DNA of 64,000 nucleotides from a virus, in the IMG/VR virus record IMGVR_UViG_3300044630_002618, positions 27,404 to 91,403 of that record. One strand, 5' to 3'. Positions 42,502 through 59,426 of the stretch are shown piece by piece; positions within the stretch are counted from its first letter, which is position 1, and each line of letters begins with the position of its first letter. The notes beneath the pieces are model-generated. The model made no database searches, had not been told where the DNA came from, and saw only the letters and a list, made by a program, of their open reading frames with translations. A program made the position numbers and the translations under genes.

Positions 42502-42518
42502 TGTCCCACCGTGGGACA
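42502..42518. repeat. Block palindrome, C-centre
   Basis: TGTCCCACCGTGGGACA, 35 nt upstream of ATG 42553, the first gene of the plus-strand block. Symmetry extends only 2 nt beyond the core on each side. Its place before the first gene suggests an operator rather than a terminator. Confidence 0.75.
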
Positions 42519-42535
42519 GTTCAACCACCACCAAC

Positions 42536-42547
42536 GCCTGAGGAGGC
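42536..42547 (+). promoter_or_regulatory. GCCT-GAGG-AGGC leader, copy 1
   Basis: The Shine-Dalgarno AGGAGG is placed half in the loop and half in the 3' arm of a 4-bp hairpin (GCCT:AGGC). It occurs six times before genes of this block and sets the start at ATG 42553. Confidence 0.6.
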
Positions 42548-42552
42548 ACACC

Positions 42553-43314
42553 ATGAAGACCACCGACCGCCCCGTAGGACTCGCCAACTTGCTCGCTGGC
42601 AAACCAACCACCAACACAACCAAGGAGACCAAAGTGTCAACCACCACCACCAAAAAAGCCCGTACCCACACCGCCAAGCCTGTCGCTGTTGAAGCGCCTG
42701 CCGAAGTCGTTGAAGTCAAGGCGACTCCTGCCGACCTGACCGCCTTGGCTGTTGCCGAAGCCATCAAGTCCGAGAGCGCCGTTGCCGACGCCAAGTTGGC
42801 GCTCCGCTCGGCATGCATCGCCGTGTTCAACGCCAACGAGGCTGGTGTCTCGTTCCGTGCCCTTGAGTTGGCAAGCAAGAATGCTGGCGCCAAGATCGGT
42901 AAGTCCACCTACGCTCGCTACGCCAAGGCTGGCGCCATCCTCATCAAGGATGAGAGCGCCGACGCCCTTGAAGTGCTCGCCAAGATCAACAAAGCCGAAA
43001 AGGGCGAAGCCAAAAAGGCTGAGAAGTCTGCCAAGGCTGAAGCCGAGACCGAGAGCGCCGAGAGCGACGCCGACAGCACCGACGAGGCAGTGGTCGCTCT
43101 GACCGTTGCCGAGATCGTTGCACAGTTGACCGAGCATGGCGCCGAAGCCATTGCCGATGTCACCGCCAACCTGATCGCATCGCTTCAGGGTGACCACGAA
43201 GTGTTCGCCACGCTCGCCGTGGCACTGCTCCGTGCCAGCGCCAACACCGTGCCCCTTGATCAGCAAGATCGGGGCAACCTGTTCAATGCAAGCGCCGACG
43301 CCCTCAGCGCCTGA
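42553..43314 (+). CDS. Lys/Ala-rich putative DNA-binding protein
   Basis: A 253-aa protein. A Thr/Lys-rich N-terminus is followed by a helical region; FRALELASKNAGAKIGKSTY then ARYAKAGAIL looks like a helix-turn-helix. A Lys/Glu/Ala linker (AEKGEAKKAEKSAKAEAE) and a helical C-terminus follow. The histone-like composition suggests DNA binding. ATG 42553 is chosen because the GCCTGAGGAGGC leader precedes it. First and strongly GC-biased gene of the block, so probably highly expressed early. Confidence 0.65.
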   Translation: MKTTDRPVGLANLLAGKPTTNTTKETKVSTTTTKKARTHTAKPVAVEAPAEVVEVKATPADLTALAVAEAIKSESAVADAKLALRSACIAVFNANEAGVSFRALELASKNAGAKIGKSTYARYAKAGAILIKDESADALEVLAKINKAEKGEAKKAEKSAKAEAETESAESDADSTDEAVVALTVAEIVAQLTEHGAEAIADVTANLIASLQGDHEVFATLAVALLRASANTVPLDQQDRGNLFNASADALSA

Positions 43315-43322
43315 TCAACCTC

Positions 43323-43355
43323 GGGGTGAGTGTCCCACGGTGGGACACTCGCCCC
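43323..43355 (+). terminator. Block palindrome with extended arms
   Basis: GGGGTGAG + TGTCCCACGGTGGGACA + CTCGCCCC, a 16-bp stem with one G-U pair, starting 8 nt after the stop of the Lys/Ala-rich gene. No U-run follows. The core is 43331-43347. Confidence 0.7.
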
Positions 43356-43379
43356 AACCATTCACCAATCACCACCAAC

Positions 43380-43390
43380 GCCTAGGAGGC
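43380..43390 (+). promoter_or_regulatory. GCCT-AGG-AGGC leader, copy 2
   Basis: Same element as copy 1 with a 3-nt loop, 4 nt before ATG 43395. Supports that start. Confidence 0.6.
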
Positions 43391-43394
43391 AACC

Positions 43395-43724
43395 ATGAAG
43401 ACCACCACCACCGCCAACATTCAGCGCTATGGCTGGGTAGGAATTGAAAGCAAAAATGAGTTCACTTGGCTTCAGTTCACCAACTACACAGTCGTCAAAG
43501 ACGAGGGCAAGTACAGCCAGTTCATTTTCCGTGGCGTCAACCCCCTCCTTGGCTCCGACGGTGATTGCAGTGTCGTCGTTGATGCTGACAGCGTTGAGGG
43601 CATCTACGAGGTTGAAAAGCGCCCGTGCACACTGCTCAACGAGGACACACCCGTGACCATCTACGGTCTTGATTCTTGGGATCGCCTGACCTCCGACGAG
43701 GACTACGCCAACTACCCCCTCTGA
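43395..43724 (+). CDS. Hypothetical protein, paralogue of 48112-48477
   Basis: A 109-aa protein. It shares with 48112-48477 the order GW..V, W.QF, QFIFRGVNPLLGSDGD / QFRGVN..., a middle Asp-rich strand and VTIYGLDSW / VTIYGFETITW. The two are therefore paralogues within one block. Beta-rich, no membrane segments, role unknown. Confidence 0.65.
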   Translation: MKTTTTANIQRYGWVGIESKNEFTWLQFTNYTVVKDEGKYSQFIFRGVNPLLGSDGDCSVVVDADSVEGIYEVEKRPCTLLNEDTPVTIYGLDSWDRLTSDEDYANYPL

Positions 43725-43771
43725 TAGTCGCCCCATCCACCAACCATCAACCACCAACCCGAGGAGTCAAC

Positions 43772-44050
43772 ATGACCATCAACCGAACACCCGAGCAAGC
43801 ATGCGACCGAGTCGCCAGTGCATTCCGTGACCACTTCACCATGAACATCCTCACGGGTGGGAAGTACACAGAGGCGCCCGTGGAACTGGCTCAGATCGCC
43901 GTTCAAATCCACTCGGCACTCGTGCCGTATGCAGGTCTCAGCGACAGCGACCGAGTGTACAACTACCGCTCGTTCCTTGAAGAGTGTGGCTTTGACCCAC
44001 TGTTCGCCCACGAGTTCATCAGCGACGATGAGCCTGACGGCATCTACTGA
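43772..44050 (+). CDS. Hypothetical protein
   Basis: A 92-aa, mostly helical protein (TPEQACDRVASAFRDHFTMN, then LAQIAVQIHSALVPYAGLSD) with an acidic end. ATG 43772 follows GAGGAG and a CCAACC-rich leader. No palindrome separates it from the previous gene, so both may share a transcript. Confidence 0.6.
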   Translation: MTINRTPEQACDRVASAFRDHFTMNILTGGKYTEAPVELAQIAVQIHSALVPYAGLSDSDRVYNYRSFLEECGFDPLFAHEFISDDEPDGIY

Positions 44051-44062
44051 TCGCTCAACCTC

Positions 44063-44095
44063 GGGGTGAGTGTCCCACGGTGGGACACTCGCCCC
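44063..44095 (+). terminator. Block palindrome with extended arms
   Basis: Same 33-nt hairpin as at 43323, 12 nt after the previous stop (core 44071-44087). A GATAGTGA follows 10 nt later. The two 33-nt copies are identical. Confidence 0.7.
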
Positions 44096-44105
44096 ACAAA
44101 CATCT

Positions 44106-44113
44106 GATAGTGA
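44106..44113 (+). promoter_or_regulatory. GATAGTGA -10 element
   Basis: GATAGT 10 nt after the hairpin, about 25 nt before ATG 44137. The right palindrome arm (GTGGGACA) lies where a -35 box would be. One of four such composites. Confidence 0.5.
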
Positions 44114-44121
44114 ACAACGAC

Positions 44122-44133
44122 GCCTGAGGAGGC
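44122..44133 (+). promoter_or_regulatory. GCCT-GAGG-AGGC leader, copy 3
   Basis: Between GATAGTGA and ATG 44137, 3 nt before the start. This site has all three elements: hairpin, -10 and leader. Confidence 0.6.
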
Positions 44134-44136
44134 AAC

Positions 44137-44475
44137 ATGAAAACAGTATGGACAGCAAACGCCCAAGAAGTCATTGACACGCTGATCTACTCGGGAGCCG
44201 AGACCTACGAGTGGTATCGCAAACTGGACATCACCGATGAAGAACAAATGGTCTGCAAGATGGAGACGGGGGAAACGACCGACGATGGCAAGATCATCAC
44301 CAAGTCGGTCACCTTCAGCCCGAGCCGTGCCAAGGCGGTCGTCAACGACATCATCAAAGAAAAAAAGGCTGGCTGGCAAGTCGTTTTGAGCGCCGTGGAC
44401 AGCGACGACTTTGACTCAGACGCCTCCGATGTTGTGCTCCAGCACATCGTGCTCGGTGACCTCGTATTCGGGTGA
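44137..44475 (+). CDS. Hypothetical acidic protein
   Basis: A 112-aa protein with NAQEVIDTLIYSGAETYEWY, then KSVTFSPSRAKAVVNDIIKE. The last third has DSDDFDSDASD, a very acidic loop. No family recognised. Confidence 0.6.
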   Translation: MKTVWTANAQEVIDTLIYSGAETYEWYRKLDITDEEQMVCKMETGETTDDGKIITKSVTFSPSRAKAVVNDIIKEKKAGWQVVLSAVDSDDFDSDASDVVLQHIVLGDLVFG

Positions 44476-44484
44476 CCGAGCCTC

Positions 44485-44509
44485 GGGGTGTCCCACGGTG
44501 GGACACCCC
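44485..44509 (+). terminator. Block palindrome with extended arms
   Basis: GGGG + core (44489-44505) + CCCC, 9 nt after the previous stop. A CAACCAACC-rich leader of about 50 nt follows; no GATAGTGA is present here. Confidence 0.65.
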
Positions 44510-44561
44510 AACCGATCTCAACCAACCAACCAAACCAACCACCAACCAAAGGAGACCCGAC

Positions 44562-45083
44562 ATGGGACTTGACCAATACCTATCAGCCACGAAGTTCATC
44601 AGCGGTAGTCAGTGGAGCACGGACTACGAGCGCCGACTCCACGCCGACATCATCTCGGCAGTGAATGCGCCCAGCATCGTTGAAGATGAATGCCCATACA
44701 TCACCGTGGACATCACGGTTGCCCAGTGGCGCAAAGCCAACGCCATCCACAACTGGTTCGTGAGCAATGTCCAGCACGGCGAGGATGACTGTGGCAAGTA
44801 CAGCGTCAGCCACGAGCAGTTGTGGGAACTCCACGAAGTCTGCCTCAAGGTGCTGGGCGAGTTTGCCTACGGCGAAACCGTTGACGGCGAATGGGTGTCC
44901 GAGCGTGGCGTCGCCATTGCTGAGGAGTTGCTCCCGACAACCTCGGGCTTCTTCTTTGGAGGAACGCAATACGACGACTGGTACTTGGAGGGCTTGCGGT
45001 ACACCAAGGACATCCTGTACAAGGTGCTCACCGACCTCATCCCGAACAAGGGATGGAAGTTTGAGTACTCGTCGTCGTGGTGA
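44562..45083 (+). CDS. Conserved phage hypothetical protein
   Basis: A 173-aa protein of a family common in phages: MGLDQYLSATKF, then QWRKANAIHNWFVSNVQHGE, SHEQLWELHEVCLKVLG and TTSGFFFGGTQYDDWYLEGL. Widespread and conserved, but its role is unknown. ATG 44562 follows AAAGGAG. Confidence 0.75.
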   Translation: MGLDQYLSATKFISGSQWSTDYERRLHADIISAVNAPSIVEDECPYITVDITVAQWRKANAIHNWFVSNVQHGEDDCGKYSVSHEQLWELHEVCLKVLGEFAYGETVDGEWVSERGVAIAEELLPTTSGFFFGGTQYDDWYLEGLRYTKDILYKVLTDLIPNKGWKFEYSSSW

Positions 45084-45090
45084 CCAATAA

Positions 45091-45119
45091 GGGGAGTGTC
45101 CCACGGTGGGACACTCCCC
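45091..45119 (+). terminator. Block palindrome with extended arms
   Basis: GGGGAG + core (45097-45113) + CTCCCC, a 14-bp perfect stem 7 nt after the previous stop. GATAGTGA follows 9 nt later. Confidence 0.7.
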
Positions 45120-45128
45120 TACACTTAA

Positions 45129-45136
45129 GATAGTGA
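45129..45136 (+). promoter_or_regulatory. GATAGTGA -10 element
   Basis: 9 nt after the hairpin and 36 nt before the helicase ATG. The predicted transcript would start near 45141, with a 30-nt leader rich in CCAACC and an AAAGGAG site. Confidence 0.5.
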
Positions 45137-45172
45137 CAGATAAGTAAACCACCACCAACCAAAGGAGCCACC

Positions 45173-46768
45173 ATGGCATTGTCCGACCGTACCAACGCCC
45201 GAAGCGCCACTGACATCCTCGCTGAGGCTGTCGCCAAAGTCAGCACGGGCTTGCGCCCGTTCTCGGGTCGCATCGCCCCTGAGGGCATCGTAGAGCACAC
45301 GCTCGCCATCCAGCCGATGCCTCACCAGTTAGTCATCGGTGAGGTTGTCAAGGCTGGGCACACTCGTCTCTTGATCGCTGACGACATGGGCGTAGGTAAG
45401 ACCTACAGCGCCCTGTTGGCGCTTGATGAACTCAACGCCTACCCAGCCCTCATTGTGTGCCCACCAGCATTGGTGATCAACTGGGAACGCTCCATCAAGA
45501 CCGCCCTGCCCCACCGCTCGGTGTCTCGCATCTCGGGTCAGAAGCCCACGAGTGTCCCCAACACGGACATCGTGATCTGCCCCGACTCAGTCATCCAGTA
45601 TTGGGCGCTGGCTCCAGTCGCCCAAGTCAACTCATGGGCACGAGCCAATCAAGGGAAGAAGCGTGAGCAACGCACGCCGAAGCCCGTCAACATCCTCGCC
45701 AGTCACCCGTGGGCTGGCTTGGTGCAGGATGAGGCTCACCGCTCCAAGTCCGAGGACTCGGGTCGTAGCAAGGCAATGGTGACCATTGCCAAGCACCTCA
45801 CCCCCGAGGCTCCGATCTTGTTGCTCTCGGGTACGCCGATGTTGTCCCGACCAGTGGAGTTGATTCCACTGCTCAACATCCTCGGTCACCTGCCTCGTTT
45901 CGGCGGTGCGAGTCGCTTCAAGACTCGGTATTGCGACCCCGTGTTCAACGGCTTTGGTACGACATTCAATGGCGCCACCAATGTCAAGGAACTCAATGAG
46001 CAACTCACCCAGTGGGTGATGATTAGGCGCAAGCGTGAGGATGTCATCATCCTCCCCGAGTTCTCTCGGTACATCACGCCCGTCGCTCTCACTGGCAAGG
46101 CTGTGACGGACTACAAGCGAGCAGTCCGTGACCTTGAGGAGTTCCTCCAAGAGAAGCGAGACGACGACAAGTTCTCGCTCAACGACCGTGCCCACGCCAT
46201 CGTTCTGCTCGGTCAACTCCGACAGATCGCTGGTCTCGGCAAGGTGTCCACTGCCGTGGATGCCACGGTCAGCCTCTTGGATGAGGGCGAGCAAGTGTTC
46301 CTCGTGACCGCCCACAAGGAGGTCGCTTGGAAACTCCGTGAGTCCCTCATCGCTGAGGGTGTGGATGCTCGCACAATCGTCTCCGTGACTGGCGACGACT
46401 CGGGCAAGCAGAAGCAAGACGCCGTTGACAAGTGGCAGGCAGGCACGGCTCGTGTCCTGATCGGCAACATCCAAGCGGTGTCCGAGGGACTCACGATGAC
46501 ATCGGGTGCGACGATGATCACGGTTGAACTTCCGTGGACACCGAGTGCCCTTAAACAAGCCGAGGCTCGGCTCCATCGGTACGGGCAAACACGCCCGTGC
46601 ACCAACAACATCCTCGTCAGTGCCCTTGATGGCGACTCGTCGGTTGACGAGCGTCTGTGGGGCATGCTGGAGGGCAAGGCAGGCGTCGTCGGCGCCATCC
46701 TTGACGACGAGGCTGAGACCTTAGTCGGCGGTTCAACAGCCAACGAATTGTTGGACTCGTACCGCTGA
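45173..46768 (+). CDS. SNF2-family DEAH helicase
   Basis: A 531-aa superfamily 2 ATPase. Motifs: a Q-like IQPMPHQ near residue 45; Walker A IADDMGVGKTYS near 70; ALIVCPPALVINW (motif Ia); DEAH-box LVQDEAHRSK near 185; motif III LLLSGTPM near 218; and motifs V-VI VSEGLTMTSGATMITVE and AEARLHRYGQTRP near 465, characteristic of SNF2 translocases. It would move on double-stranded DNA to remodel bound proteins, with a possible role in replication or transcription. The GC-rich gene has its own promoter composite. Confidence 0.88.
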   Translation: MALSDRTNARSATDILAEAVAKVSTGLRPFSGRIAPEGIVEHTLAIQPMPHQLVIGEVVKAGHTRLLIADDMGVGKTYSALLALDELNAYPALIVCPPALVINWERSIKTALPHRSVSRISGQKPTSVPNTDIVICPDSVIQYWALAPVAQVNSWARANQGKKREQRTPKPVNILASHPWAGLVQDEAHRSKSEDSGRSKAMVTIAKHLTPEAPILLLSGTPMLSRPVELIPLLNILGHLPRFGGASRFKTRYCDPVFNGFGTTFNGATNVKELNEQLTQWVMIRRKREDVIILPEFSRYITPVALTGKAVTDYKRAVRDLEEFLQEKRDDDKFSLNDRAHAIVLLGQLRQIAGLGKVSTAVDATVSLLDEGEQVFLVTAHKEVAWKLRESLIAEGVDARTIVSVTGDDSGKQKQDAVDKWQAGTARVLIGNIQAVSEGLTMTSGATMITVELPWTPSALKQAEARLHRYGQTRPCTNNILVSALDGDSSVDERLWGMLEGKAGVVGAILDDEAETLVGGSTANELLDSYR

Positions 46769-46774
46769 CTAACA

Positions 46775-46803
46775 GGGGAGTGTCCCACGGTGGGACACTC
46801 CCC
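46775..46803 (+). terminator. Block palindrome with extended arms
   Basis: Same 29-nt hairpin as at 45091 (core 46781-46797), 6 nt after the helicase stop, followed by GATAGTGA 9 nt on. Confidence 0.7.
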
Positions 46804-46812
46804 ACAAATCAA

Positions 46813-46820
46813 GATAGTGA
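46813..46820 (+). promoter_or_regulatory. GATAGTGA -10 element
   Basis: In the same spacing as at 45129. ATG 46849 follows 28 nt after it, with ATAAGGAG as ribosome site. Confidence 0.5.
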
Positions 46821-46848
46821 ACCACCAACCATAAGGAGAACCACCACC

Positions 46849-47748
46849 ATGTCCACCACCTACAGCACTGAAGCCACGCCCAAGCAAGTCCAGTTCCTGC
46901 TTTCGCTTTGGAAGCAACTCAACGAAGTCGTCGTTGATACTCAAGACCCAGCCAGCAACTGGTCGGGCGACGATGCTCAGACCATCAAGGCTGACAACCT
47001 CTTATCTAAGACCTTGGTTGAACTTGATAAGGCAGTCGTTACAAAGTTCGTCAACAGCGAGAAGATTGTCCTCAGCACGGTTGAGGTGATCGGGTTTGCC
47101 GAGGGCGCAGAGTCCATCGCCAAGTCAGAAATATCAACAGCGATTGATGTGCTCAAGAGACTGCTTGACTCAGCCAAGGCTGAACGAGCCACATGGGGCT
47201 TGCCCACGGTTGCCCCCGACTGGGTCAGCAAGTACCCAGCAGTCCCTGCCGATGCCGAGAAGGTTATTGAGGCGAAGTTTGCCAGCAAGTGCTCGGTGTG
47301 CGGTAAGCGTGACCAGTACATCGCCTACCTCAAGGCTGGCTGGCATGCCCTGTGCCAGTCGTGTGCCCACAGTGACGGGAAGACTGACGACCGCATTGAC
47401 GAGGGCATCCAGCGAGTCCTGACAGCCGTTGGCAAGGGCAACGCCAAGGCTGGCAATGTCGGTCTCGCAGTGCCCGATCTTGACGAACTTGACGGGTTCG
47501 CCTACTACCGAGTCAGTCGCTCAGGCGTTGCCAAGGTCATCGGTGGTTCGCACTTCAACTCAGTGCAGAACCTCCCACAAGACAAGCAGGATGCTGTCCT
47601 TGCCGACCTAGTCAGGTACGACCTGCCCGAACTGGCTCGTGCGTTCGGCATGCACTTCAAGGTGTGCGGTGTCTGCGGTCGCACACTCAAGGATGAGCAC
47701 AGCCGAGCCATCGGTATCGGCTCGGACTGCCTCGCTGGTCTTGGCTGA
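46849..47748 (+). CDS. Zinc-finger protein with DUF6011-like tail
   Basis: A 299-aa protein. A helical N-terminal half (TPKQVQFLLSLWKQLNEVVV) is followed by a four-Cys zinc module, CSVCGKRDQYIAYLKAGWHA then LCQSC, near residues 145-170. It ends CGVCGRTLKDEHSRAIGIGS, then DCLAGLG, the DUF6011-type zinc motif. Such proteins occur in phage early regions beside helicases and probably bind nucleic acid. ATG 46849 is chosen by its AAGGAG. Confidence 0.75.
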   Translation: MSTTYSTEATPKQVQFLLSLWKQLNEVVVDTQDPASNWSGDDAQTIKADNLLSKTLVELDKAVVTKFVNSEKIVLSTVEVIGFAEGAESIAKSEISTAIDVLKRLLDSAKAERATWGLPTVAPDWVSKYPAVPADAEKVIEAKFASKCSVCGKRDQYIAYLKAGWHALCQSCAHSDGKTDDRIDEGIQRVLTAVGKGNAKAGNVGLAVPDLDELDGFAYYRVSRSGVAKVIGGSHFNSVQNLPQDKQDAVLADLVRYDLPELARAFGMHFKVCGVCGRTLKDEHSRAIGIGSDCLAGLG

Positions 47749-47787
47749 TCGGTTGGGGTTGGGCGTTGTGGTGGCGCCCAGCCCCAG

Positions 47788-47804
47788 TGTCCCACGGTGG
47801 GACA
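47788..47804. repeat. Block palindrome, G-centre, bare core
   Basis: Core without extended arms, 39 nt after the previous stop, 59 nt before ATG 47864. A GTTAGACCT lies downstream but no GATAGTGA, so it heads the five-gene operon at 47864-49140 without a clear -10. Confidence 0.7.
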
Positions 47805-47863
47805 GCACAACTACATCACACCCAATCGTTAGACCTACACAACAACAAACAAGGAGAAACATC

Positions 47864-48115
47864 ATGTCCACAAAAACCACCGAAATCTACGAGATTGAGA
47901 TATTCAAACTCGGCGCTCTGCGCTGGTTCACTCGCATCTACCGAGTTGAGCCGAATCCATTCGCAGACGACCTCAAGAACCTCGTTTGGAATATCACCAC
48001 CAACACCCAGTGGGGAGCAAATAGAGAAGCCAACCGACTCATCCGTGAGTTCGCCATTCTCGGGGGCGAAGCAAACGACCGCAAGACCATTACCCATACG
48101 GAGGAATCAAAATGA
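47864..48115 (+). CDS. Hypothetical protein, first gene of an overlapping operon
   Basis: An 83-aa protein with ALRWFTRIYRVEPNPFADDL, then NREANRLIREFAILGGEAND. ATG 47864 follows AAGGAG. The five genes to 49140 overlap by 4 nt each, so they are translated as one unit. Confidence 0.6.
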   Translation: MSTKTTEIYEIEIFKLGALRWFTRIYRVEPNPFADDLKNLVWNITTNTQWGANREANRLIREFAILGGEANDRKTITHTEESK

Positions 48116-48477
48116 AGACCATCAACCCAATCATCAACCATCAAGGGTGGGCGCTAGTCACCGACCCCGATCTTGCCAACCCAGCATGGGTTCAGTTCCA
48201 GTCCTGCGAGTTTGTGGCGAATAAAACTGGCGACCTCGTCGCCTACCAGTTCCGTGGAGTCAACCGCACCATCTCTGAAGATGGGATGGCGTACTGGCAT
48301 TGGACTGACATCGCCCTGATTACATACAGCGTGGAGCGCCCACTGCATCACCTCGCTGATGCTGACGAAGTCACCATCTATGGCTTTGAGACCATCACAT
48401 GGACAAACCGCCGTGAAGACGAACTACGGGAACAAGCACGACGGGCATACGCACGAAGCAGAGGGGAATCGGTATGA
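48112..48477 (+). CDS. Hypothetical protein, paralogue of 43395-43724
   Basis: A 121-aa protein sharing GW.LV, WVQFQSCEFV, YQFRGVNRTISEDG and VTIYGFETITW with the 43395 gene. The C-terminus is an extra basic helix (EDELREQARRAYARSRGE). ATGA overlap with the gene before. Confidence 0.65.
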   Translation: MKTINPIINHQGWALVTDPDLANPAWVQFQSCEFVANKTGDLVAYQFRGVNRTISEDGMAYWHWTDIALITYSVERPLHHLADADEVTIYGFETITWTNRREDELREQARRAYARSRGESV

Positions 48478-48659
48478 CCAAGTACATCGTTCACATCGGA
48501 ACAGGAACAATCATCAATGCCGACGAGTGTGTCGTCGTTGACCTAGACAAACTGGATGACTACGACACCGAGTTGTTCAATGATGGATGGGAAGACGACA
48601 TCGTTGACATTGCCAAGCGTGTCGGACAACAACTACAACCACAAGGAGAGCAATCATGA
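48474..48659 (+). CDS. Small acidic protein
   Basis: A 61-aa protein, MTKYIVHIGTGTIINADECV then a run of Asp/Glu (DLDKLDDYDTELFNDGWEDD). Overlaps both neighbours by ATGA. Function unknown. Confidence 0.6.
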   Translation: MTKYIVHIGTGTIINADECVVVDLDKLDDYDTELFNDGWEDDIVDIAKRVGQQLQPQGEQS

Positions 48660-48910
48660 AGACAGTGACCATCACACAGTGGTACGAGTTCAGCGTTGTC
48701 GCTGAGGTGCAAGTGCCCGACGACTACGACACCGTGGACATTCAGGAAGCCTTTGAGGACTTCCCGATCAGCATTGATGTCAAGGTGCGAGACGATGAGG
48801 GTTGGTTTGGAGAAGACCACGCCGTCATCTCATACATCACCGAAGACCTGACCACCACTGGTGGCATTGAAGTAATTGAACCCGAACAACCCGAAGGAGA
48901 AACAGCATGA
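48656..48910 (+). CDS. Small, highly acidic protein
   Basis: An 84-aa protein with about one acidic residue in four and only two Lys and one Arg. Beta-rich start (TVTITQWYEFSVVAEVQVP), acidic tail (EPEQPEGETA). DNA mimicry is possible but unproven. Confidence 0.6.
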   Translation: MKTVTITQWYEFSVVAEVQVPDDYDTVDIQEAFEDFPISIDVKVRDDEGWFGEDHAVISYITEDLTTTGGIEVIEPEQPEGETA

Positions 48911-49140
48911 GCAAGCCCACCGCCCAACAGATCATTGAGGAACACAGCACGATCATTGTCACCGCATTGGAGGACTACCGAGAATGGTGGTCAGGCGATG
49001 CTGGAGACGAAGAGGTCGTCGCTCAGATTGACGAAGCGATTGATGCGATCAACGGCTTCAGCGCCGAGGACACCACACTGGTGGCGACGCCCCCGTTCTA
49101 CACCCACCCCGACAGCAACGCATTCATTAGTTGGGACTGA
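48907..49140 (+). CDS. Small acidic helical protein
   Basis: A 77-aa, acidic protein: TAQQIIEEHSTIIVTALEDY, then EVVAQIDEAIDAINGFSAED. Last gene of the overlapping operon. Function unknown. Confidence 0.6.
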   Translation: MSKPTAQQIIEEHSTIIVTALEDYREWWSGDAGDEEVVAQIDEAIDAINGFSAEDTTLVATPPFYTHPDSNAFISWD

Positions 49141-49141
49141 G

Positions 49142-49694: not shown

Positions 49695-49698
49695 AACC

Positions 49699-52730: not shown

Positions 52731-52740
52731 TCGCAGTAAG

Positions 52741-52757
52741 TGTCCCACCGTGGGACA
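52741..52757. repeat. Block palindrome, C-centre
   Basis: TGTCCCACCGTGGGACA without extended arms, 10 nt after the hairpin region and 52 nt before ATG 52809. GTAATAAAA downstream offers TAATAA as a possible -10. Confidence 0.7.
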
Positions 52758-52808
52758 GCAGTAATAAAACCTAAACCACCAAATCACCAAACCACAAGGA
52801 GAACCATC

Positions 52809-54077
52809 ATGGCTCGCATCAGCGACCTTACAGTTGGCAAAGAGTTTGAAATCTCTGCCAAAAAGTCCAAGACAGTCAGCGCACGATTAGCCGACAGCAC
52901 TCGGGTTGAAATCCCCGTGGGCGAAACAGTCGTCATCGTCACCAATGAGGTTGACCCCGATGGCACCGAGTTCGCTCGTTGCATCCAAGTCCGTCGCACC
53001 AGCGGTGAGGTTGTCTACCTCCTCCCGAAGTTGCTCTCGGATGGCACCATCGTGACCTCAGCAGTTGCGCCAGCAGTCAACGCACCAGCATCGGCTCCAG
53101 TAGTCGTCGCACAGAAGCCCATCGTTGACCCGATGGATGTCCGTCTTGACCCGTACCGCCCATCATGGGACTTGCTCAAGAAGTATGTCTCACGCAAGTT
53201 GTTCGGTTCAATCAAGGACACCGACCTGTTGCTCCACTACTGGCGCACCCGTGACAACAATGGTTACTCAGCCAATGTCCTTTTTGAGGGCGACACACAG
53301 GCTGGCAAGACCATGTTCGTTCAGGTGCTCGCCTGCCTCGTGTCCAAGGAACTGGGCTTCCCCAAGCCCCTCCCAGTGTTCACCCTCAGCGGTTCCGCTG
53401 GTGTCACCGACTACGACTTGTTCGGTCAGTCGGTCGCACACATCGGTGCCGATGGCGTGGAGCGCCTCGTGTTCCTCAACGGCATCATTGAACTCGCCAG
53501 CAAGGTGCCATGCATCTTGTACCTTGACGAGATCAATATGATGCCCGAGCGAGTCACCTCAACGCTCCACCCAGTCGCTGACGACCGACGCTCGTTCGTC
53601 AACCGTCAGAAGGCTGTGGAGTCCGAGGGTGAGTACCTCATGGCTCAGACCAAGATGAACACGGGTTGCTGGATTGTCGGCACCATGAACCCTGCTGGGT
53701 ACCGTGGTACCTCGCCTCTCAACGAGGCATTCGCCAACCGCTTCACCAAGCGCATCCCGTGGGGATACGACCGTGATGTTGAGACCAAGTTGCTCGGCTC
53801 GCCCAGCATGGTCTTGCTTGCGGAATCGCTCCGTGAGGCTCGTCGCCTCGGCTCAATCCAAACACCAGTCGGCACCAAGTTGTTGGTGGATGCCAAGAAA
53901 GATATTGACGCTCTTGGCGTTGAGATTGGGTTGGCAGTGTTTGCCTCGTTCTTCAACGAGCGTGAGCGCCCCAAGGTGGAAGCCATCATCAATGACAAGT
54001 CCATCCGCACCTTCTTGATTGAAGAGCAGGCTGGCAGAACTCCTCAGGTGGTCGTCGGAGACGACGAACCGTTCTGA
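52809..54077 (+). CDS. MoxR/CobS-like AAA+ ATPase
   Basis: A 422-aa ATPase. Residues 1-110 form a beta-rich N-domain; 110-160 a helical link. Walker A EGDTQAGKTMF near 160, then sensor-like LSGSAGVTDYDLFGQS, Walker B CILYLDEINMMP near 235, and the arginine region NEAFANRFTKRIPW near 300. MoxR-family ATPases work as hexamers with VWA proteins to remodel or chelate-load targets. Encoded just after a VWA protein. ATG 52809 follows AAGGAG. Confidence 0.85.
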   Translation: MARISDLTVGKEFEISAKKSKTVSARLADSTRVEIPVGETVVIVTNEVDPDGTEFARCIQVRRTSGEVVYLLPKLLSDGTIVTSAVAPAVNAPASAPVVVAQKPIVDPMDVRLDPYRPSWDLLKKYVSRKLFGSIKDTDLLLHYWRTRDNNGYSANVLFEGDTQAGKTMFVQVLACLVSKELGFPKPLPVFTLSGSAGVTDYDLFGQSVAHIGADGVERLVFLNGIIELASKVPCILYLDEINMMPERVTSTLHPVADDRRSFVNRQKAVESEGEYLMAQTKMNTGCWIVGTMNPAGYRGTSPLNEAFANRFTKRIPWGYDRDVETKLLGSPSMVLLAESLREARRLGSIQTPVGTKLLVDAKKDIDALGVEIGLAVFASFFNERERPKVEAIINDKSIRTFLIEEQAGRTPQVVVGDDEPF

Positions 54078-54088
54078 GTAAGCAATGT

Positions 54089-54122
54089 CCTCGCTGGCTG
54101 GTACCCCCACCAGTCAGCGAGG
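54089..54122 (+). terminator. Intrinsic terminator after the ATPase gene
   Basis: A 13-bp stem with one G-U pair (CCTCGCTGGCTGG / CCAGTCAGCGAGG) and an 8-nt C-rich loop, followed by CTTTA. It differs from the block palindrome and resembles a standard rho-independent terminator, though the U-run is short. Confidence 0.7.
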
Positions 54123-54154
54123 CTTTATCAACCACAACAACCAAAGGAAAAACC

Positions 54155-54643
54155 ATGAATCTATTCAAGAGAGTTGCGCTGGCGAATGCCGTTGTAGCGG
54201 AACACAATGCAGGAAAAGTACGGGCGGTGATTGCTTCCGAATACGGAATTAGCGAGAACCAAGTTCAGTATTTACTGAAGCATGCTCGTGAGGCTGGCTT
54301 GTTTGTTCGCCCCGTCAAGCGTGGTCGTAAGTCAAGCGCACAGACAACCATGCGCCGTGCCGAGATTGCCAACCGCTACCGCTCAGGTGAGTCAGGCCCG
54401 AGTATCGCTCGCTCCCTCGGAGTGACCGTAGAAACGGTCTACACGAGCCTCCGCACCGTTGGTGTGGAACGACGCAAGCGAGCCAACACGGAGCGCAACA
54501 ACTCCATTGTGGTGCGCTACCAGTCGGGTGAGTCGGGCGTCAAGATTGCCAAAGACTTGGCAGTTACGCCCAAGGTCGTGTACGACACGCTCCACCGTGC
54601 TGGAGTTGTTATCCGTAAGAAAGAAGTTCTAACCAACGCCTAA
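54155..54643 (+). CDS. Triple helix-turn-helix DNA-binding protein
   Basis: A 162-aa, very basic protein with three similar HTH units: AGKVRAVIASEYGISENQVQ, RSGESGPSIARSLGVTVETV and QSGESGVKIAKDLAVTPKVV, each followed by a Y.L / Y.SLR recognition-helix end. Tandem HTHs of this type bind repetitive DNA. It is the best local candidate for a factor that reads the block palindrome or GATAGTGA elements. ATG 54155 follows AAAGGA. Confidence 0.75.
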   Translation: MNLFKRVALANAVVAEHNAGKVRAVIASEYGISENQVQYLLKHAREAGLFVRPVKRGRKSSAQTTMRRAEIANRYRSGESGPSIARSLGVTVETVYTSLRTVGVERRKRANTERNNSIVVRYQSGESGVKIAKDLAVTPKVVYDTLHRAGVVIRKKEVLTNA

Positions 54644-54650
54644 GACTTAG

Positions 54651-54679
54651 ACGGAGTGTCCCACGGTGGGACACTCCGT
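54651..54679 (+). terminator. Block palindrome with extended arms and U-tract
   Basis: ACGGAG + core (54657-54673) + CTCCGT, a 14-bp perfect stem 7 nt after the triple-HTH stop, followed by TTGTT. The most terminator-like copy of the family. GATAGTGA follows. Confidence 0.7.
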
Positions 54680-54687
54680 TTGTTGGC

Positions 54688-54695
54688 GATAGTGA
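54688..54695 (+). promoter_or_regulatory. GATAGTGA -10 element
   Basis: 8 nt after the hairpin; ATG 54721 is 25 nt further on with AAGGAG. Fourth member of the hairpin-GATAGTGA set. Confidence 0.5.
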
Positions 54696-54720
54696 CACAT
54701 CAAACCACAAGGAGAACCAC

Positions 54721-55029
54721 ATGACGATTGAGACGGGCATAGACCCGATTGCTGTTTTTGACGAGGCTGTCAAGTTACGACATCTCGCTGGGGCGCTGTA
54801 CTGCGTAGCACTACATGCCCCATGCACCTGTGAAGGTGAACTCTGCCATGACCCGAATTGCGACGAATGTACAACTGCTGTAAGTAATAACCAAGTATGC
54901 CCACGATGCATCAGCATGAGTAGGTACGAGGAATGGGTGGGCATTGAGACCCTCCCAGTCGTACACCCTCATGGGATATGGATTGGGTACACGCCCGTAG
55001 AACCACACACCGAAGAGGAGACACAGTGA
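54721..55029 (+). CDS. Cys-rich hypothetical protein
   Basis: A 102-aa protein with six Cys in CTCEGELCHDPNCDECTTAV and NQVCPRCISM, likely a zinc-binding module. The tail is acidic (TPVEPHTEEETQ). Overlaps the next gene by GTGA. Confidence 0.6.
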   Translation: MTIETGIDPIAVFDEAVKLRHLAGALYCVALHAPCTCEGELCHDPNCDECTTAVSNNQVCPRCISMSRYEEWVGIETLPVVHPHGIWIGYTPVEPHTEEETQ

Positions 55030-55433
55030 ACAACGAAGGAACCAAAGCCAGCGACTGGTATCTGTACGCCGATACCGACCTGTTTGACCCTGAGAACACC
55101 TGCCAGTTTTTCAAATACTGGCAAGCGATCAAGGGCGAACACATTGCTCACTACATCAAGCACAAGGAACTCATTCCGCAGTACGCATTGATTGAACGAT
55201 TGTGCCGTGAGTTCCCTAGGTACACCGCAGACCAAATGGAAGAGTTGTTCTGCAAGGGTTACGACACCGTGTACGCCGATGAGATTGCCCATGACATTGC
55301 CAATAATTACGAAGTAAAAAACGACGAAGAGTTGAACGAATTGACCGAGAATCTCTTTGAGTACATCAAGTCACGCATTGAACAAGATCGCCATGAGAGG
55401 GCGGTACTAAAAGCACTGGAGGAAGAATTATGA
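55026..55433 (+). CDS. Hypothetical helical protein
   Basis: A 135-aa, acidic, helical protein (TCQFFKYWQAIKGEHIAHYI, DEELNELTENLFEYIKSRIE). The GTG start at 55026 is set by GAGGAG and GTGA overlap, so upstream in-frame starts are rejected. Confidence 0.6.
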   Translation: MNNEGTKASDWYLYADTDLFDPENTCQFFKYWQAIKGEHIAHYIKHKELIPQYALIERLCREFPRYTADQMEELFCKGYDTVYADEIAHDIANNYEVKNDEELNELTENLFEYIKSRIEQDRHERAVLKALEEEL

Positions 55434-55693
55434 GCCAGCAACAGGCTTACACGGGGAACTTAGGGATTACTCTTACCGTTCCTGAGGGGTTATATTTCCC
55501 CAACCAACATCCTGATCACACAAACACACCTGACTCGGTGTGGGGCGAAGTCGCCCGAGTCATCAGGGAATACCTTGAGGGCATTGGAGCCGAGGTCAAT
55601 GGAGTCTTCCATTATGCGACCCCGTACAAACACCCATACACCCCCCAAGTACGGTCAAATTACATCATCAACCAAGACATCACACATCACTGA
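55430..55693 (+). CDS. Hypothetical protein
   Basis: An 87-aa protein with LGITLTVPEGLYFPNQHPDH, then VWGEVARVIREYLEGIGAEV. His-rich C-terminus. ATGA overlap with the upstream gene. Function unknown. Confidence 0.55.
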   Translation: MSQQQAYTGNLGITLTVPEGLYFPNQHPDHTNTPDSVWGEVARVIREYLEGIGAEVNGVFHYATPYKHPYTPQVRSNYIINQDITHH

Positions 55694-55728
55694 GGAGTGA
55701 ACAAAATGGATACAACAACAACACCAAC

Positions 55729-55740
55729 GCCTGAGGAGGC
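55729..55740 (+). promoter_or_regulatory. GCCT-GAGG-AGGC leader, copy 6
   Basis: 7 nt before ATG 55748. It sits inside what would be coding sequence if the upstream ATG 55706 were used, so it argues for the later start. Confidence 0.6.
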
Positions 55741-55747
55741 AACCGAA

Positions 55748-55987
55748 ATGAATATCTTCCAAAGAAAACAAATAGCAAAAGAAATAGCCCGCGTCCAAAA
55801 AACCAGTCAGTTTGAGATGGCAACAAATCTGCTGGAAGAAATAATGATGTTTGTTCCTGTGGACAAAGACCTCACCCCAATGGTTATTTTGGATGCACTT
55901 GGCTGTGCAGGGTTGTCACTCACCGTTGGTGAAGACGCTTCACTTACATTTATTGAAATGACAAAAAAAGAAGGAGCAACAAAATGA
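55748..55987 (+). CDS. Small hypothetical protein
   Basis: A 79-aa protein: [20 protein letters not shown], then a strand-rich end ([20 protein letters not shown]). ATG 55748 is chosen for the leader element; ATG 55706 with GAGGAG is the alternative and would add 14 Thr/Pro-rich residues. Confidence 0.55.
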
Positions 55988-56148
55988 GCAGTAAATACAA
56001 GATCGTTCGTATGTGGAAATCTGATAAGAAAAACAAAACAATCAAGCGTGGACTCACGCTTGAACAGGCTCAAGCACATTGCAAAGACCCAAACACTAGA
56101 GAGGCTGGAGTTTGGTTTGACGGATACGAGGAAGAGGTAACAGCATGA
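55984..56148 (+). CDS. Small conserved phage protein
   Basis: A 54-aa protein with [20 protein letters not shown], then [20 protein letters not shown] and WFDGYEE. This short family (YKIVR ... [12 protein letters not shown] ... WFDGYEE) is common in actinophages. Overlaps both neighbours by ATGA. Confidence 0.75.
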
Positions 56149-56501
56149 ACAAGACAGAGAAGAACCTAGTAACGGAGTACATCAAACTTCACAACGAGTG
56201 CAAGGTGGCTGAGATTCGTTTGAAGGAAATTGAGAAGGCGCTCAAGCAAGCCATTGACGAGGGCGACGAAGTCGTCGTGGATGGTTATGCGCTGAAGCAC
56301 ATCGCTCAGGATCGTCGGTCGTTTGACGCCATTGCCCTCAAGGACTTGGTCTCACCGTCGCTGTTCAAGAAGATCACCGAGGTCAGTGTCAAGGCAAGCG
56401 CCGTAGATAGCGCCATTGAACTTGGTGCCGTTGACGCCGAGGTCATTGACGCAGTCACCGAGTTGAAGCACTCGTCTTACTTGAAAGTGCTGGTGAAGTA
56501 A
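56145..56501 (+). CDS. Hypothetical protein with coiled-coil start
   Basis: A 118-aa protein: coiled coil ([20 protein letters not shown]), then a compact C-terminal domain ([20 protein letters not shown]). No family recognised. Confidence 0.6.
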
Positions 56502-56797
56502 TGGACAATTTCAAGCCAGTCTTCAAGATCAGAGTTACCCCAAGCAAGGACTTAGTTGTCCTTGAGGTGTCCGACCCTGACAATCTTGAGGACTTCATCC
56601 CGCTGATCAAAGATGCCGTAGATGTCGCTTGTTACGAAGTCATGGAGGTGTACAACGCCGAGGAGGGCGACGCCCGATTCTTCCGTGACTGGGAGCATGC
56701 TAAGTCGTACTACGGCAATGAACAGTGGCTCGGGGATGATGAGTTGGGTATCAGCCTTGACGACTTTGAGTGGGATGACGAAGATGACTTTTTATAA
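56501..56797 (+). CDS. Acidic hypothetical protein
   Basis: A 98-aa protein with a beta-rich start (FKPVFKIRVTPSKDLVVLEV) and a strongly acidic tail (LDDFEWDDEDDFL). TAATG overlap with the gene before. Confidence 0.6.
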   Translation: MDNFKPVFKIRVTPSKDLVVLEVSDPDNLEDFIPLIKDAVDVACYEVMEVYNAEEGDARFFRDWEHAKSYYGNEQWLGDDELGISLDDFEWDDEDDFL

Positions 56798-57197
56798 GGA
56801 TAAGAGTAACTATCCTGAACCCCAAATCCCAAAACAATCACCGTACGCAAAGCCGGAAGATAATTACAACGGTGACTACGAACGGTGGAGTCCAAAAGGT
56901 AAGCCTAAGTATAAGAAACCCTCAGAAAACATAAAACAAGATCAACGAAACATTTCCAACGAGCCATACCCTATTGAGCCACATCTCACCGAAGACGAGC
57001 GTCTCAAAGTCAAGGCTATGAAAGAGGAGTCTCGTCGTAAGTTAGTGGAACTCACCTATCAACGAAAAAAGTTGAAGGAATTAAAAGAGTTAGAAGAGTT
57101 AGAAGCAACACAGTCATGCATGTGGTGCGGTGAGGTAATGCCAAGCGAAGAAGAGTTAGAGAAGCACGAACAACAACACTTTGAGGAAGGTGAGTAA
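56784..57197 (+). CDS. C2H2-like zinc-finger protein with charged linker
   Basis: A 137-aa protein with a Pro/Lys-rich, probably disordered N-terminal half, a charged helix (RKKLKELKELEELEA) and a C-terminal zinc finger, CMWCGEVMPSEEELEKHEQQ then H. The finger spacing (CxxC...HxxxxH) is that of C2H2 folds. ATG 56784 overlaps the previous gene by 14 nt; ATG 56775 is an alternative. Confidence 0.6.
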   Translation: MTFYKDKSNYPEPQIPKQSPYAKPEDNYNGDYERWSPKGKPKYKKPSENIKQDQRNISNEPYPIEPHLTEDERLKVKAMKEESRRKLVELTYQRKKLKELKELEELEATQSCMWCGEVMPSEEELEKHEQQHFEEGE

Positions 57198-57619
57198 TGC
57201 AAACATTCATACCCTACGGTGATGACTTCACCGCTAATGCCAAAGTTCTAGACCGACAGCGCCTCGGTAAACAGCGCGTAGAGGGTCTTCAGATTCTGAA
57301 CACCCTGACTGGCGTCAGCACTGGCTGGCGTAACCACCCTGCCGTCAAGGCTTGGGTTGGTCACGAGGAGTTGCTTGCCCACTATGTGTTCGCCATGTGC
57401 GACGAGTGGACTGGGCGCGGTTACAAGGACACCTGCCGTGACAAGGTGCGGTCGTTGTTTACGACCATTCAAGACCTCGCTGACCTGCCTCGCTTTGGTT
57501 GGCTCGTTGACCCCGAGGTTGCTAACTCACACCGAGCCAATCTTGTCCGTAAGTTGCCTGAGCACTACGGAGTGATTTGGACAGGCGTTGACATATCAAC
57601 CCCATACAAGTGGTCGTAA
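57197..57619 (+). CDS. Pyrimidine-dimer DNA glycosylase family protein
   Basis: A 140-aa protein of the Pyr_excise family: MQTFIPYGDDFTANAKVLDR, then QRLGKQRVEGLQILNTLTGV and STGWRNHPAVKAWVGHEELL. The family includes T4 endonuclease V-like enzymes that start repair of UV-made dimers. Suggests a phage exposed to sunlight. TAATG overlap upstream. Confidence 0.8.
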   Translation: MQTFIPYGDDFTANAKVLDRQRLGKQRVEGLQILNTLTGVSTGWRNHPAVKAWVGHEELLAHYVFAMCDEWTGRGYKDTCRDKVRSLFTTIQDLADLPRFGWLVDPEVANSHRANLVRKLPEHYGVIWTGVDISTPYKWS

Positions 57620-57628
57620 GGAGCCGAC

Positions 57629-57814
57629 ATGACCGATCAAGGAGCAATGCGAGTCGCTTATCTCAACGCCTTACATCAAGGTTTAGCCACTGCTGAAGAA
57701 GACCTACGAACATTGTTAGATATCGCCCGTGTTCTTTTGAAACGAGGCGACTTATCCACAGAGGATTACGACGAACTCCAGGCAAGGATTACCGCTTGCG
57801 AGTCCCTTGGCTAG
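57629..57814 (+). CDS. Small hypothetical protein, last gene of the plus block
   Basis: A 61-aa, helical, acidic protein (QGLATAEEDLRTLLDIARVL, then LSTEDYDELQARITACES). ATG 57629 follows AAGGAG. Function unknown. Confidence 0.6.
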   Translation: MTDQGAMRVAYLNALHQGLATAEEDLRTLLDIARVLLKRGDLSTEDYDELQARITACESLG

Positions 57815-57830
57815 TTTCTTATATAAAAAT

Positions 57831-57880
57831 AACCCCCCTCCCGTGACCCTTATGGGTTGCGAGAGGGGGGTTCTTTTTTT
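57831..57880. terminator. Bidirectional terminator
   Basis: A perfect 10-bp stem (AACCCCCCTC / GAGGGGGGTT) with an inner ACCC-TTAT-GGGT hairpin. A CTTTTTTT tract follows on the plus strand, and ATTTTTAT on the minus strand. It separates two converging transcripts. Confidence 0.9.
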
Positions 57881-57895
57881 GTTTACGGCTTAAAA

Positions 57896-58315
57896 CTATT
57901 TGTTTTGTCGTAGTCGTTCGCGGATAGTTTTCTCGCTGGTCTTGAAGATCACGGAAGCCTGAGCGATGGGGTTCTCAACTTTTAACTTTCTAAGGTCTCT
58001 TACGATCTGAGTAACAGTTAAATCCTTACTCGCTCTGCCCATGCCGACATCACGGCGGTTCCTTGGTGCGATTCCTCCCCACAGCCCATACTTGATGTGG
58101 TTGTTGAGGGCAAAATCTAAGCACTCAAGACGGACTGGACACTGGGCGCACATGACTCGCTGTGCCGAGTAGTTAGCCTTAGCGCCAATTTCCTCCTGAA
58201 AGAAGGCGTCGGTGTTGGCGCCTCGGCATGAGGCTTGATCTTGCCATTTCAGTTCTGTGTAAGTCAGTGATGGTAGTTCTACATGTCGCTTGTTGGATGG
58301 TATTTTGGGTTGCAT
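57896..58315 (-). CDS. WhiB-like regulator 1
   Basis: A 139-aa protein with the WhiB pattern: QDQASCRGANTDAFFQEE is close to the family start, CAQCPVRLECLDFALNN holds three Cys, and KYGLWGGIAPRNRRD is the G(I/V)WGG turn. Four Cys would bind an iron-sulfur cluster. A C-terminal extension (TVTQIVRDLRKL and SEKTIRERLRQNK) looks like an added HTH. WhiB proteins are specific to actinobacteria and their phages and regulate sigma-factor activity. Confidence 0.9.
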   Translation of the reverse strand: MQPKIPSNKRHVELPSLTYTELKWQDQASCRGANTDAFFQEEIGAKANYSAQRVMCAQCPVRLECLDFALNNHIKYGLWGGIAPRNRRDVGMGRASKDLTVTQIVRDLRKLKVENPIAQASVIFKTSEKTIRERLRQNK

Positions 58316-58317
58316 TA

Positions 58318-59397
58318 TTACTTTCCGTATTGGTCAAATATCTGCTGGTGGAGTTGCGCCCCGTATTGGATGTCACGAGCCTTTACGCCCTCGTAACAGG
58401 CTTCTCCTTCTTCTACTCGGGCATCATAAGAGCGTAACGCATTGATGTGCCGAATCCAATCTGAGGGGCGCTTTGCTGTGCGACCAATACCCAGCGTGGA
58501 CTTCAGGTGCGTGTATGAGTCAAGGTTCTGAGCAATGAACGGGATACCACAGGCGCTGTATTCAAGACCTTTGATGTCTGACTTGGCTCGGTTGAATGGG
58601 ATGTTATTCAGGGGCACGATGCCAACATCAAAGTTCAATCCGCTTGGGTAGTTGAGATGGTCGGTCAATGGGGTCGTTGAGACCTGATCGTCGTTGAGCC
58701 GTAAGGCTGACGCCATGGTAGACATGGACGGGTGAGCGCCATGGTGGTGGAGAGTTATCTTTTCTGAGTTAACAAATGGGGTTATAACTCCAGCAAGAGT
58801 CTCTAGGTCTCGGCTTCGGTGTGCCGTACTTCCTGCCCAACCAAATGTCGGCTTGGTTGACACAACATGTCGGTATTTGGGGAAGCGAGCCACATCAATG
58901 TAGTTGGGCACAAGGATGACTTTTGTACCCCGAGCAAGTTGTTTGATGCGGTCATAGAGGTATGGGGTGCTTACTGTAAGTAAGTCTGAGGCGCATAAGG
59001 TCGCCTTGTAATGGTTGATGTTAATTTCAGGACTGGTTTTAGGGTGTGTGGCGCGGAATGCTTGGTTGGTTTCAGACAACCCCCAATACCAGTCATCCAC
59101 ATCATTGATAATGATCTGACCCTGTTTTTGAGCAAGTTTGATACGGAGGTCAGCCCCCCTGTGCATGAGGCGTTGCATCCACACGGCATCCACATCGTGG
59201 ACTGCTTCATCAGCGTCGCGTATCTGAAACGCCCCATGCTGGGGATCAAAAATTAGAGTACCGACATGGAAAGTGTGATCAGTAATGAGGGGTAGGTATT
59301 GACCCACCCGTGCCCATCCTGAGCCACCCCATCTTTCAGCACCATCGTCTACATGATCGGGGTGAACCCAGTCACCTGACGCTACTCCAATTTTCAT
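58318..59397 (-). CDS. GT4-like glycosyltransferase
   Basis: A 359-aa protein with a GT-B fold pattern: DNA ends KIGVASGDW; then a mid-domain with VILVPNYIDVARFP, TKPTFGWAGSTAHRSRDLET, ALRLND, and the donor-site region FDVGIVPLNNIPFNRAKSDI, KGLEYSACGIPFI. It may transfer sugar to phage DNA, a virion protein or a host wall component. ATG 59397 has GAGGAG; the longer frame starting in the palindrome is rejected. Confidence 0.8.
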   Translation of the reverse strand: MKIGVASGDWVHPDHVDDGAERWGGSGWARVGQYLPLITDHTFHVGTLIFDPQHGAFQIRDADEAVHDVDAVWMQRLMHRGADLRIKLAQKQGQIIINDVDDWYWGLSETNQAFRATHPKTSPEININHYKATLCASDLLTVSTPYLYDRIKQLARGTKVILVPNYIDVARFPKYRHVVSTKPTFGWAGSTAHRSRDLETLAGVITPFVNSEKITLHHHGAHPSMSTMASALRLNDDQVSTTPLTDHLNYPSGLNFDVGIVPLNNIPFNRAKSDIKGLEYSACGIPFIAQNLDSYTHLKSTLGIGRTAKRPSDWIRHINALRSYDARVEEGEACYEGVKARDIQYGAQLHQQIFDQYGK

Positions 59398-59409
59398 TTT
59401 GTGCTCCTC

Positions 59410-59426
59410 TGTCCCACGGTGGGACA
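59410..59426. repeat. Block palindrome, G-centre, before a minus-strand gene
   Basis: The only copy outside the plus-strand block. It sits just upstream of the glycosyltransferase ribosome site (core ends 13 nt before its ATG on the minus strand) and just after the end of the lysozyme-like gene. Confidence 0.7.

Follow-up and report, generated by a model that had tools for sequence, protein, structure and literature searches.

A 17-nucleotide (nt) palindrome recurs along the non-structural genes of a virus record of 91,403 bases (IMG/VR record IMGVR_UViG_3300044630_002618, here G000). The window analyzed here, 64,000 nt, comprises bases 27404-91403 of that record, and positions refer to it unless another record or contig is named. 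A preliminary description, made from the letters of the window, had listed 11 copies of the palindrome and one variant. A pattern search recovered the exact 17-mer TGTCCCACSGTGGGACA at all 11 of those positions, from 42502 to 59426, and the variant at 42063 (TGTCCCACCATGGGACA) differs by one mismatch. The core in the window has the form TGTCCCA-N3-TGGGACA, with 11 exact copies and the single variant all lying within 42063-59426. With up to two mismatches allowed, the relaxed pattern TGTCCCANNNTGGGACA matched at 13 places in the window, for an expectation of 0.25, and the rest of the 91.4-kb record held no more copies of the 17-mer at the same threshold. The setting of the copies is an array of rightward, non-structural genes at 42.5-57.8 kb. 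Among its products are a SNF2-type helicase (45173-46768), an AAA-ATPase (52809-54077) and a protein with three helix-turn-helix (HTH) motifs, the triple-HTH protein (54155-54643). Behind the array comes a leftward gene group that encodes two WhiB-like proteins (57896-58315 and 60052-60438).

Six copies, all closely behind a stop codon, carry complementary flanks, hereafter arms. These armed cores, all on the plus strand, span 43323-43355 (core 43331-43347) and 44063-44095 (core 44071-44087), both with the arms GGGGTGAG/CTCGCCCC; 44485-44509 (core 44489-44505; GGGG/CCCC); 45090-45120 (core 45097-45113; AGGGGAG/CTCCCCT); 46775-46803 (core 46781-46797; GGGGAG/CTCCCC); and 54648-54682 (core 54657-54673; ACGGAG/CTCCGT, nine pairs with G-U). 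Arm length is 4-9 bp in total, counting G-U, and the arms start about 4-12 nt past the upstream stop codon, a slightly wider range than the 6-12 nt given initially for these six sites.

The other copies are bare. The variant (42063-42079) lies in a control region of about 0.8 kb and is kept in the related records G001 and G002. The core at 42502-42518 lies 34 nt upstream of the start of the first array gene, our candidate regulator (42553-43314), and has an extra TGTCC half-site one helical turn upstream (CTGTCCGCTACTGTCCC), read likewise in the sequences of G002, G003, G011 and G013; a third TGTCC half-site, one helical turn off, is present at two bare sites. The core at 47788-47804 has a separate hairpin directly 5' of it, and that at 52741-52757 precedes the AAA-ATPase gene. 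Bare copies had been described as preceding genes, which needs qualification at two places: the core at 49280-49296 falls within the last codons of a small open reading frame (ORF; 49142-49300, ending CPTVGQ-stop, or CPESGQ-stop in G011), and that at 59410-59426, on the minus strand, serves the leftward gene 58318-59397, beside its Shine-Dalgarno (SD) sequence and immediately past TATGAT.

The arms differ from site to site yet stay complementary, which had been read as the signature of an RNA hairpin, and this reading held when more sites were compared. Shuffling the right flanks of the 12 window sites gave 13.1±4.1 consecutive pairs against 33 observed, and 0 of 10000 shuffles reached that number, so that flank complementarity is far above that of shuffled flanks; for the six armed sites alone, 58 of 10000 shuffles reached the observed pair run. 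Extending the sample to 25 distinct armed sites from six genomes, we scored a 15-pair stem, of which 89.6% were standard pairs. Double-changed cells numbered 53 against 19.8±3.8 in shuffles, and the covariation score was 0.37, compared with 0.13±0.02 in shuffles and at most 0.11 when the flanks were slid by one to three columns. Armed sites share kinship, so a shuffle count does not equal a probability; the slid controls and the changes at orthologous sites carry the argument. Among the latter, the 45097 orthologue in G011 has GGTGAG/CTCACC in place of GGGGAG/CTCCCC, a double change, and the 54657 orthologue in G002 has ATGGGG/CCCCAT in place of ACGGAG/CTCCGT, two double changes. Given that the arms change on both sides across related genomes, the sequences argue that an RNA hairpin is under selection at the armed copies. 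The six armed sites fold into a GC-rich hairpin of -23 to -31.5 kcal/mol, and bare copies into a short hairpin of 7-9 bp (about -10 to -15 kcal/mol).

Two sites behind genes, 47788 and 52741, are bare in all genomes compared, and at both a strong, separate GC hairpin lies immediately 5' of the core (z of -3.5 to -6.4). The first, at 47753-47787 on the plus strand, has a compensatory change in G011 and a z of -5.0 to -6.4 in four genomes; the second, at 52692-52733 on the same strand, has a compensatory change between G005 and G012. Hence junctions that follow a gene tend to keep a hairpin, regardless of whether it contains the putative operator. Rfam 15 at the gathering score gave no match in the window, and a tRNA scan found nothing at the sites.

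The most unusual feature of the core became visible once relatives were compared, as it cannot be seen from the window alone. At megablast level the phage collection contained no DNA relatives, and a pattern scan of viral contigs returned several records that carry this core in arrays. In these related phages the palindrome occurs in the same order and at conserved positions. G001 is identical to G000 across its length, G002 and G003 are close, and G005 is further off. G011 and G012 lack the original core but carry an altered form, TGTCCCG(A/T)S(T/A)CGGGACA at 12 of 12 places in G011 and TGTCCCGTWACGGGACA at 9 of 9 places in G012; the core of G013 is of the G011 type. The invariant frame is thus TGTCCC-R-N3-Y-GGGACA. 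The pair R7/Y11 is A/T (A-type) throughout G000 (12/12), G002 (12/12), G003 (6/6), G005 (8/8) and G006 (2/2), and G/C (G-type) throughout G011 (12/12), G012 (9/9) and G013 (2/2). No copy of the opposite type was left at one mismatch or fewer in the five genomes checked. The expectation that the core is constant within a genome, as a protein site would be, is thereby borne out: in the stem, pairs 9-14 (core) are invariant, and pair 15 (R7:Y11) differs only between genomes.

These genomes form two clades, one of G000, G002, G003, G011 and G013 and the other of G005 and G012. Since each clade contains both A-type and G-type genomes, the sequences indicate that the core type has switched at least twice. 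Identity between G000 and G011 is 97.5% in the interval 49.7-55.0 kb and 91% at 45.1-47.9 kb; all sites within the former interval differ in their core, which is almost the sole change at several aligned sites. In clade 2, G005 and G012 are mostly 80-89% identical where conserved, and about 70% identical to G000; here the 59410 site is armed (CAGTGG/CCACTG and ATAGTGG/CCACTAT). At 49280 the difference between G000 and G011 swaps Thr-Val for Glu-Ser in the small ORF. As the core switch alters encoded residues there, the DNA letters dominate at that site.

The gene at 42553-43314, on the plus strand, encodes a 253-aa protein with HTH-like residues at about 101-132 (GVSFRALELASKNAGAKIGKSTYARYAKAG). 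It lies in the diverged part of the array (42.0-45.1 kb), where G000 and G011 are about 75% identical, compared with 91-97% elsewhere. Its HTH-like helix reads KSTYAR in G000 and G002, KSSFAR in G003 and KSTFSR in G011 and G013, and the protein is nearly identical between the two G-type genomes G013 and G011. The allele follows the core type in the five clade 1 genomes; the clade 2 homologue lies beyond the ends of the available contigs. The WhiB-like and triple-HTH proteins had been proposed as binders. Among the genes common to G000, G005, G011 and G012, no column of either WhiB-like protein or of the triple-HTH protein separates A-type from G-type; we rejected the former and retain the latter as a weak alternative. 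Type-linked columns occur mainly in genes at 20-38 kb of G000, largely structural by position (81 columns, against 57 in a swapped control). The structural-arm proteins of the window include no regulator-like family, and were rejected as regulators. The 42553-43314 product is the best candidate binder of the core, a choice that we would put at about an even chance.

The same 17-mer also occurs outside these phages. Among the matches listed, chromosomes of Micrococcales (Citricoccus, Arthrobacter and Brevibacterium) carry it shortly before a gene for a small HTH protein. The helix of that protein reads PKSTVAR, and its likeness to the helix of the 42553 protein speaks for the latter as binder; a homologue with a different helix (ISQFTVIR) has no upstream 17-mer, and homologues of the gene were found in only 7 of 396 genomes of the order. 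An unrelated phage-like record of 60% GC, G009 (L043 4755-9462), has six TGTCCCA-N3-TGGGACA sites by gene starts, two of them sharing one divergent spacer, and no homologue of the 42553 or triple-HTH protein was found in it. When bacterial genomes were scanned, most of the matches listed came from repeats in a small number of Rhodobacteraceae including Citreimonas (L117-L195), where the 17-mer recurs many times near gene ends, about 20-30 nt from AACCCATTGATTT; we take these repeats to be an unrelated use of the same letters. Two parAB loci have one copy of the 17-mer within parB and another shortly past its end (L133 7401 and 7627; L177 4029 and 4236), where it resembles a parS site enlarged by one base at the centre, and L114 has a G-type form inside a parB-like gene. 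We left aside lone copies in further viral contigs, which seem to be chance occurrences or parS-like neighbours.

The surroundings of the sites bear on how the core might act. The host is probably an actinobacterium, given the WhiB genes and the AAA-ATPase, for which tblastn found only distant relatives in Gordonia and Brevibacterium phages. The motif GATAGTGA occurs six times on the plus strand of the window (0.86 expected per strand) and lies 14-18 nt past four of the cores, a spacing at which the core would cover the -35 region. TATGAT, by comparison, stands directly 5' of the core ahead of the leftward gene 58318-59397. A core placed at two distances from putative starts would suit a repressor better than an activator. 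An SD hairpin, CGCCT(N)AGGAGGC, precedes six genes (42535, 43379, 44121, 49318, 49682 and 55728), so that the SD sequence can fold into a small stem; it recalls the start-associated sequences of cluster K phages, with different letters. In the clade 2 loci L032 and L044 the leaders from core to start are long, G-poor and A/C-rich (accaaccaaccatcaaacc...), and possibly are unstructured leaders or Rho-type sites. Two short proteins further upstream (39747-40199 and 40484-40906) have ParB/Srx-like motifs by eye (GNGHHR and KNGYHR) and no PHROG match.

Taken together, we lean slightly toward the core being the DNA operator of a dimeric phage HTH regulator, likely the 42553-43314 product, nested in or beside an intercistronic hairpin. 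The protein would bind TGTCCC-R-N3-Y-GGGACA as a dimer, with an operator ahead of each of about 10 non-structural gene units, including the regulator's own gene. Directly behind a co-directional gene a hairpin would usually be kept as well: at six sites covarying arms are added to the operator itself, and at two an independent hairpin stands just 5' of it. Such a structure would terminate or shield the upstream transcript and insulate the next unit, and the operator would govern expression of the unit that follows, most likely via repression. Whether one dyad in this way fuses a regulator operator with an intercistronic RNA hairpin, the core switching genome-wide as a block and the arms following RNA pairing, is in our judgment evenly balanced.

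Several observations weigh against this reading. The 42553 protein has no significant Pfam or PHROG match, its HTH going unrecognised; a comparison by hhalign of that HTH with the bacterial one gave 36% identity over 39 columns at a probability of just 21%. In its AlphaFold model, residues 101-110 and 117-132 are helical, with a mean predicted local distance difference test score (pLDDT) of 48 (about 66-78 in the HTH), and a structure search with it returned no significant match. Only one of the two switches can be compared with the 42553 allele, and the only two replacements between the triple-HTH proteins of G000 and G011, S33T and L40F, both fall in the first HTH, which is why that protein stays a weak alternative. 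Promoter evidence is mixed, as the GATAGTGA-like motif is missing at clade 2 rightward sites. The hairpin stems have no U-tract 3' of them, the bases there being mostly A/C, and a terminator scan called none of the elements an intrinsic terminator; the hairpins may instead end transcripts in a factor-dependent manner or protect 3' ends. No lysogeny genes were found (searches of G000 and six other records gave no integrase, serine recombinase/resolvase or ParA), and gene content thus gives an immunity role no support.

The same sites could act as a stoperator-like roadblock, in which bound regulator stops elongating RNA polymerase in the manner of cluster A repressors, the arms aid release and no promoter is needed at each site. 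The sites occupy gaps between cistrons and, in one case, the 3' end of a coding sequence, nearly all within one co-directional array, and at the rightward sites of clade 2 the stretch from core to start codon shows no promoter-like motif, both of which would fit a roadblock. However, the core is a symmetric palindrome while stoperators are asymmetric, promoter control is the simpler account of the bare copies ahead of the first gene and beside the leftward gene start, and no lysogeny genes were found; we consider a roadblock unlikely. We give still less weight to a host regulator that recognises the core, with A- and G-types mirroring different hosts. In its favour are the 17-mer upstream of an HTH gene in actinobacterial chromosomes, the relaxed form in the unrelated, actinophage-like G009, and the want of type-linked residues in phage regulators of fully shared regions. 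Homologues of that HTH gene in 7 of 396 genomes are nevertheless too rare for a general host factor, and a type-linked phage allele does exist, that of 42553.

That the whole hairpin is an RNA element, with the core as recognition sequence for a phage RNA-binding protein, seems improbable to us. The arms covary, and the core folds with a 3-nt loop and is constant within a genome, as such an element would require. Yet bare copies form merely a short hairpin of 7-9 bp, the copy at 59410 goes with a gene that runs leftward, a third TGTCC half-site stands one helical turn off at two bare sites, and the 17-mer precedes bacterial HTH genes as DNA operators do. Because of the bare copies, the coding-sequence copy with its residue change and the same palindrome by gene starts in G009, we favor a DNA site over an RNA one. 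Arm pairing could also be mutational, since template switching is a known process at quasi-palindromes and might perfect the flanks of a strong palindrome without selection. The same core, however, has unpaired flanks at bare positions in the genomes compared, and armless sites that follow a gene keep an independent hairpin in which compensatory changes have also occurred, leaving this account very little probability. Slighter still is the chance that the cores are parS-like centromere sites of a ParB-type protein: the outer letters of canonical parS are similar to the core, and two bacterial contigs among the matches listed have the 17-mer both within parB and shortly past it, but no ParA-type ATPase (AAA_31) was found in the seven related records, the 42553 candidate has no ParB_N domain, and the sites occur one per gene junction, combined with hairpins.

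If the operator reading is correct, the repeated concerted switching in near-identical phages would represent regulator-operator coevolution across about 12 sites at once. The phages would then offer a natural experiment: two independent, all-or-none specificity switches at about 12 dispersed operators, with one pair of genomes reaching 97.5% identity near the sites. They would let one ask how a regulator changes in step with the whole set of its sites, an old puzzle of operator evolution and phage immunity. The change to examine is small, a single base pair (A7:T11 becoming G7:C11) and, in the 42553 protein, A121S as the one candidate residue, and within 17-35 nt the element would allow selection for DNA recognition to be told apart from selection for RNA structure.

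The preliminary description knew of no named phage element of this form. Comparable named elements do exist, the nearest being the stoperators of cluster A and the extended start-associated sequences (ESAS) of cluster K mycobacteriophages, although the palindrome belongs to neither. In Micrococcales the same 17-mer stands in one or two copies upstream of the small HTH gene, whose helix KSTVAR resembles KSTYAR, but that is a single chromosomal locus with no array and no hairpin arms. The distantly related Brevibacterium phage Cantare has six intergenic 19-nt palindromes like ATACATAGAWTCTATGTAT at comparable places, one of them ahead of the homologous AAA-ATPase gene (L078 12790, 17210, 18122, 19762, 22643 and 29236; unannotated in the record). 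Their sequence is different and they lack hairpin arms, and by eye each one takes up the spacer that separates a -35-like from a -10-like hexamer. That placement in putative promoters supports an operator role of such arrays in the wider group.

Cluster A stoperators are asymmetric 13-bp sites of a monomeric repressor. They number as many as about 30, the phages that carry them have an immunity system, and their motif varies between phages together with the repressor (PMC6550527; PMC9283540). Our element is likewise a set of many dispersed, putative protein sites whose sequence varies between phages. Unlike stoperators, which are asymmetric and mostly in one orientation, its frame is palindromic; it has 12 copies, and it occurs in phages in which no lysogeny genes were found. 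The ESAS of cluster K are intergenic inverted repeats in the non-structural arm, upstream of translation starts, with a consensus that varies by subcluster; each consists of two imperfect 17-bp repeats and a spacer and is tied to a 13-bp start-associated sequence (SAS), and in Adephagia the ESAS contain SigA-like promoters, with a stem-loop between the upstream gene and one ESAS (PMC3203893; PMC11373665). The palindrome resembles ESAS in that inverted repeats stand in several intergenic gaps of the non-structural arm, ahead of starts. The 13-bp SAS of cluster K (GGGATAGGAGCCC) had no match at up to two mismatches, and in place of two imperfect 17-bp inverted repeats around a SigA-like promoter we found a promoter-like motif only downstream of some clade 1 copies. 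In contrast to ESAS, there is here a single 17-nt palindrome, the hairpin arms are on the repeat itself, and near-identical genomes differ by a one-base-pair switch. By analogy, the element would act as ESAS and stoperators do, as dispersed regulatory sites with phage-type-specific sequence, while being a member of neither; what it adds to them is the concerted switch of the core and an operator apparently nested in a hairpin.

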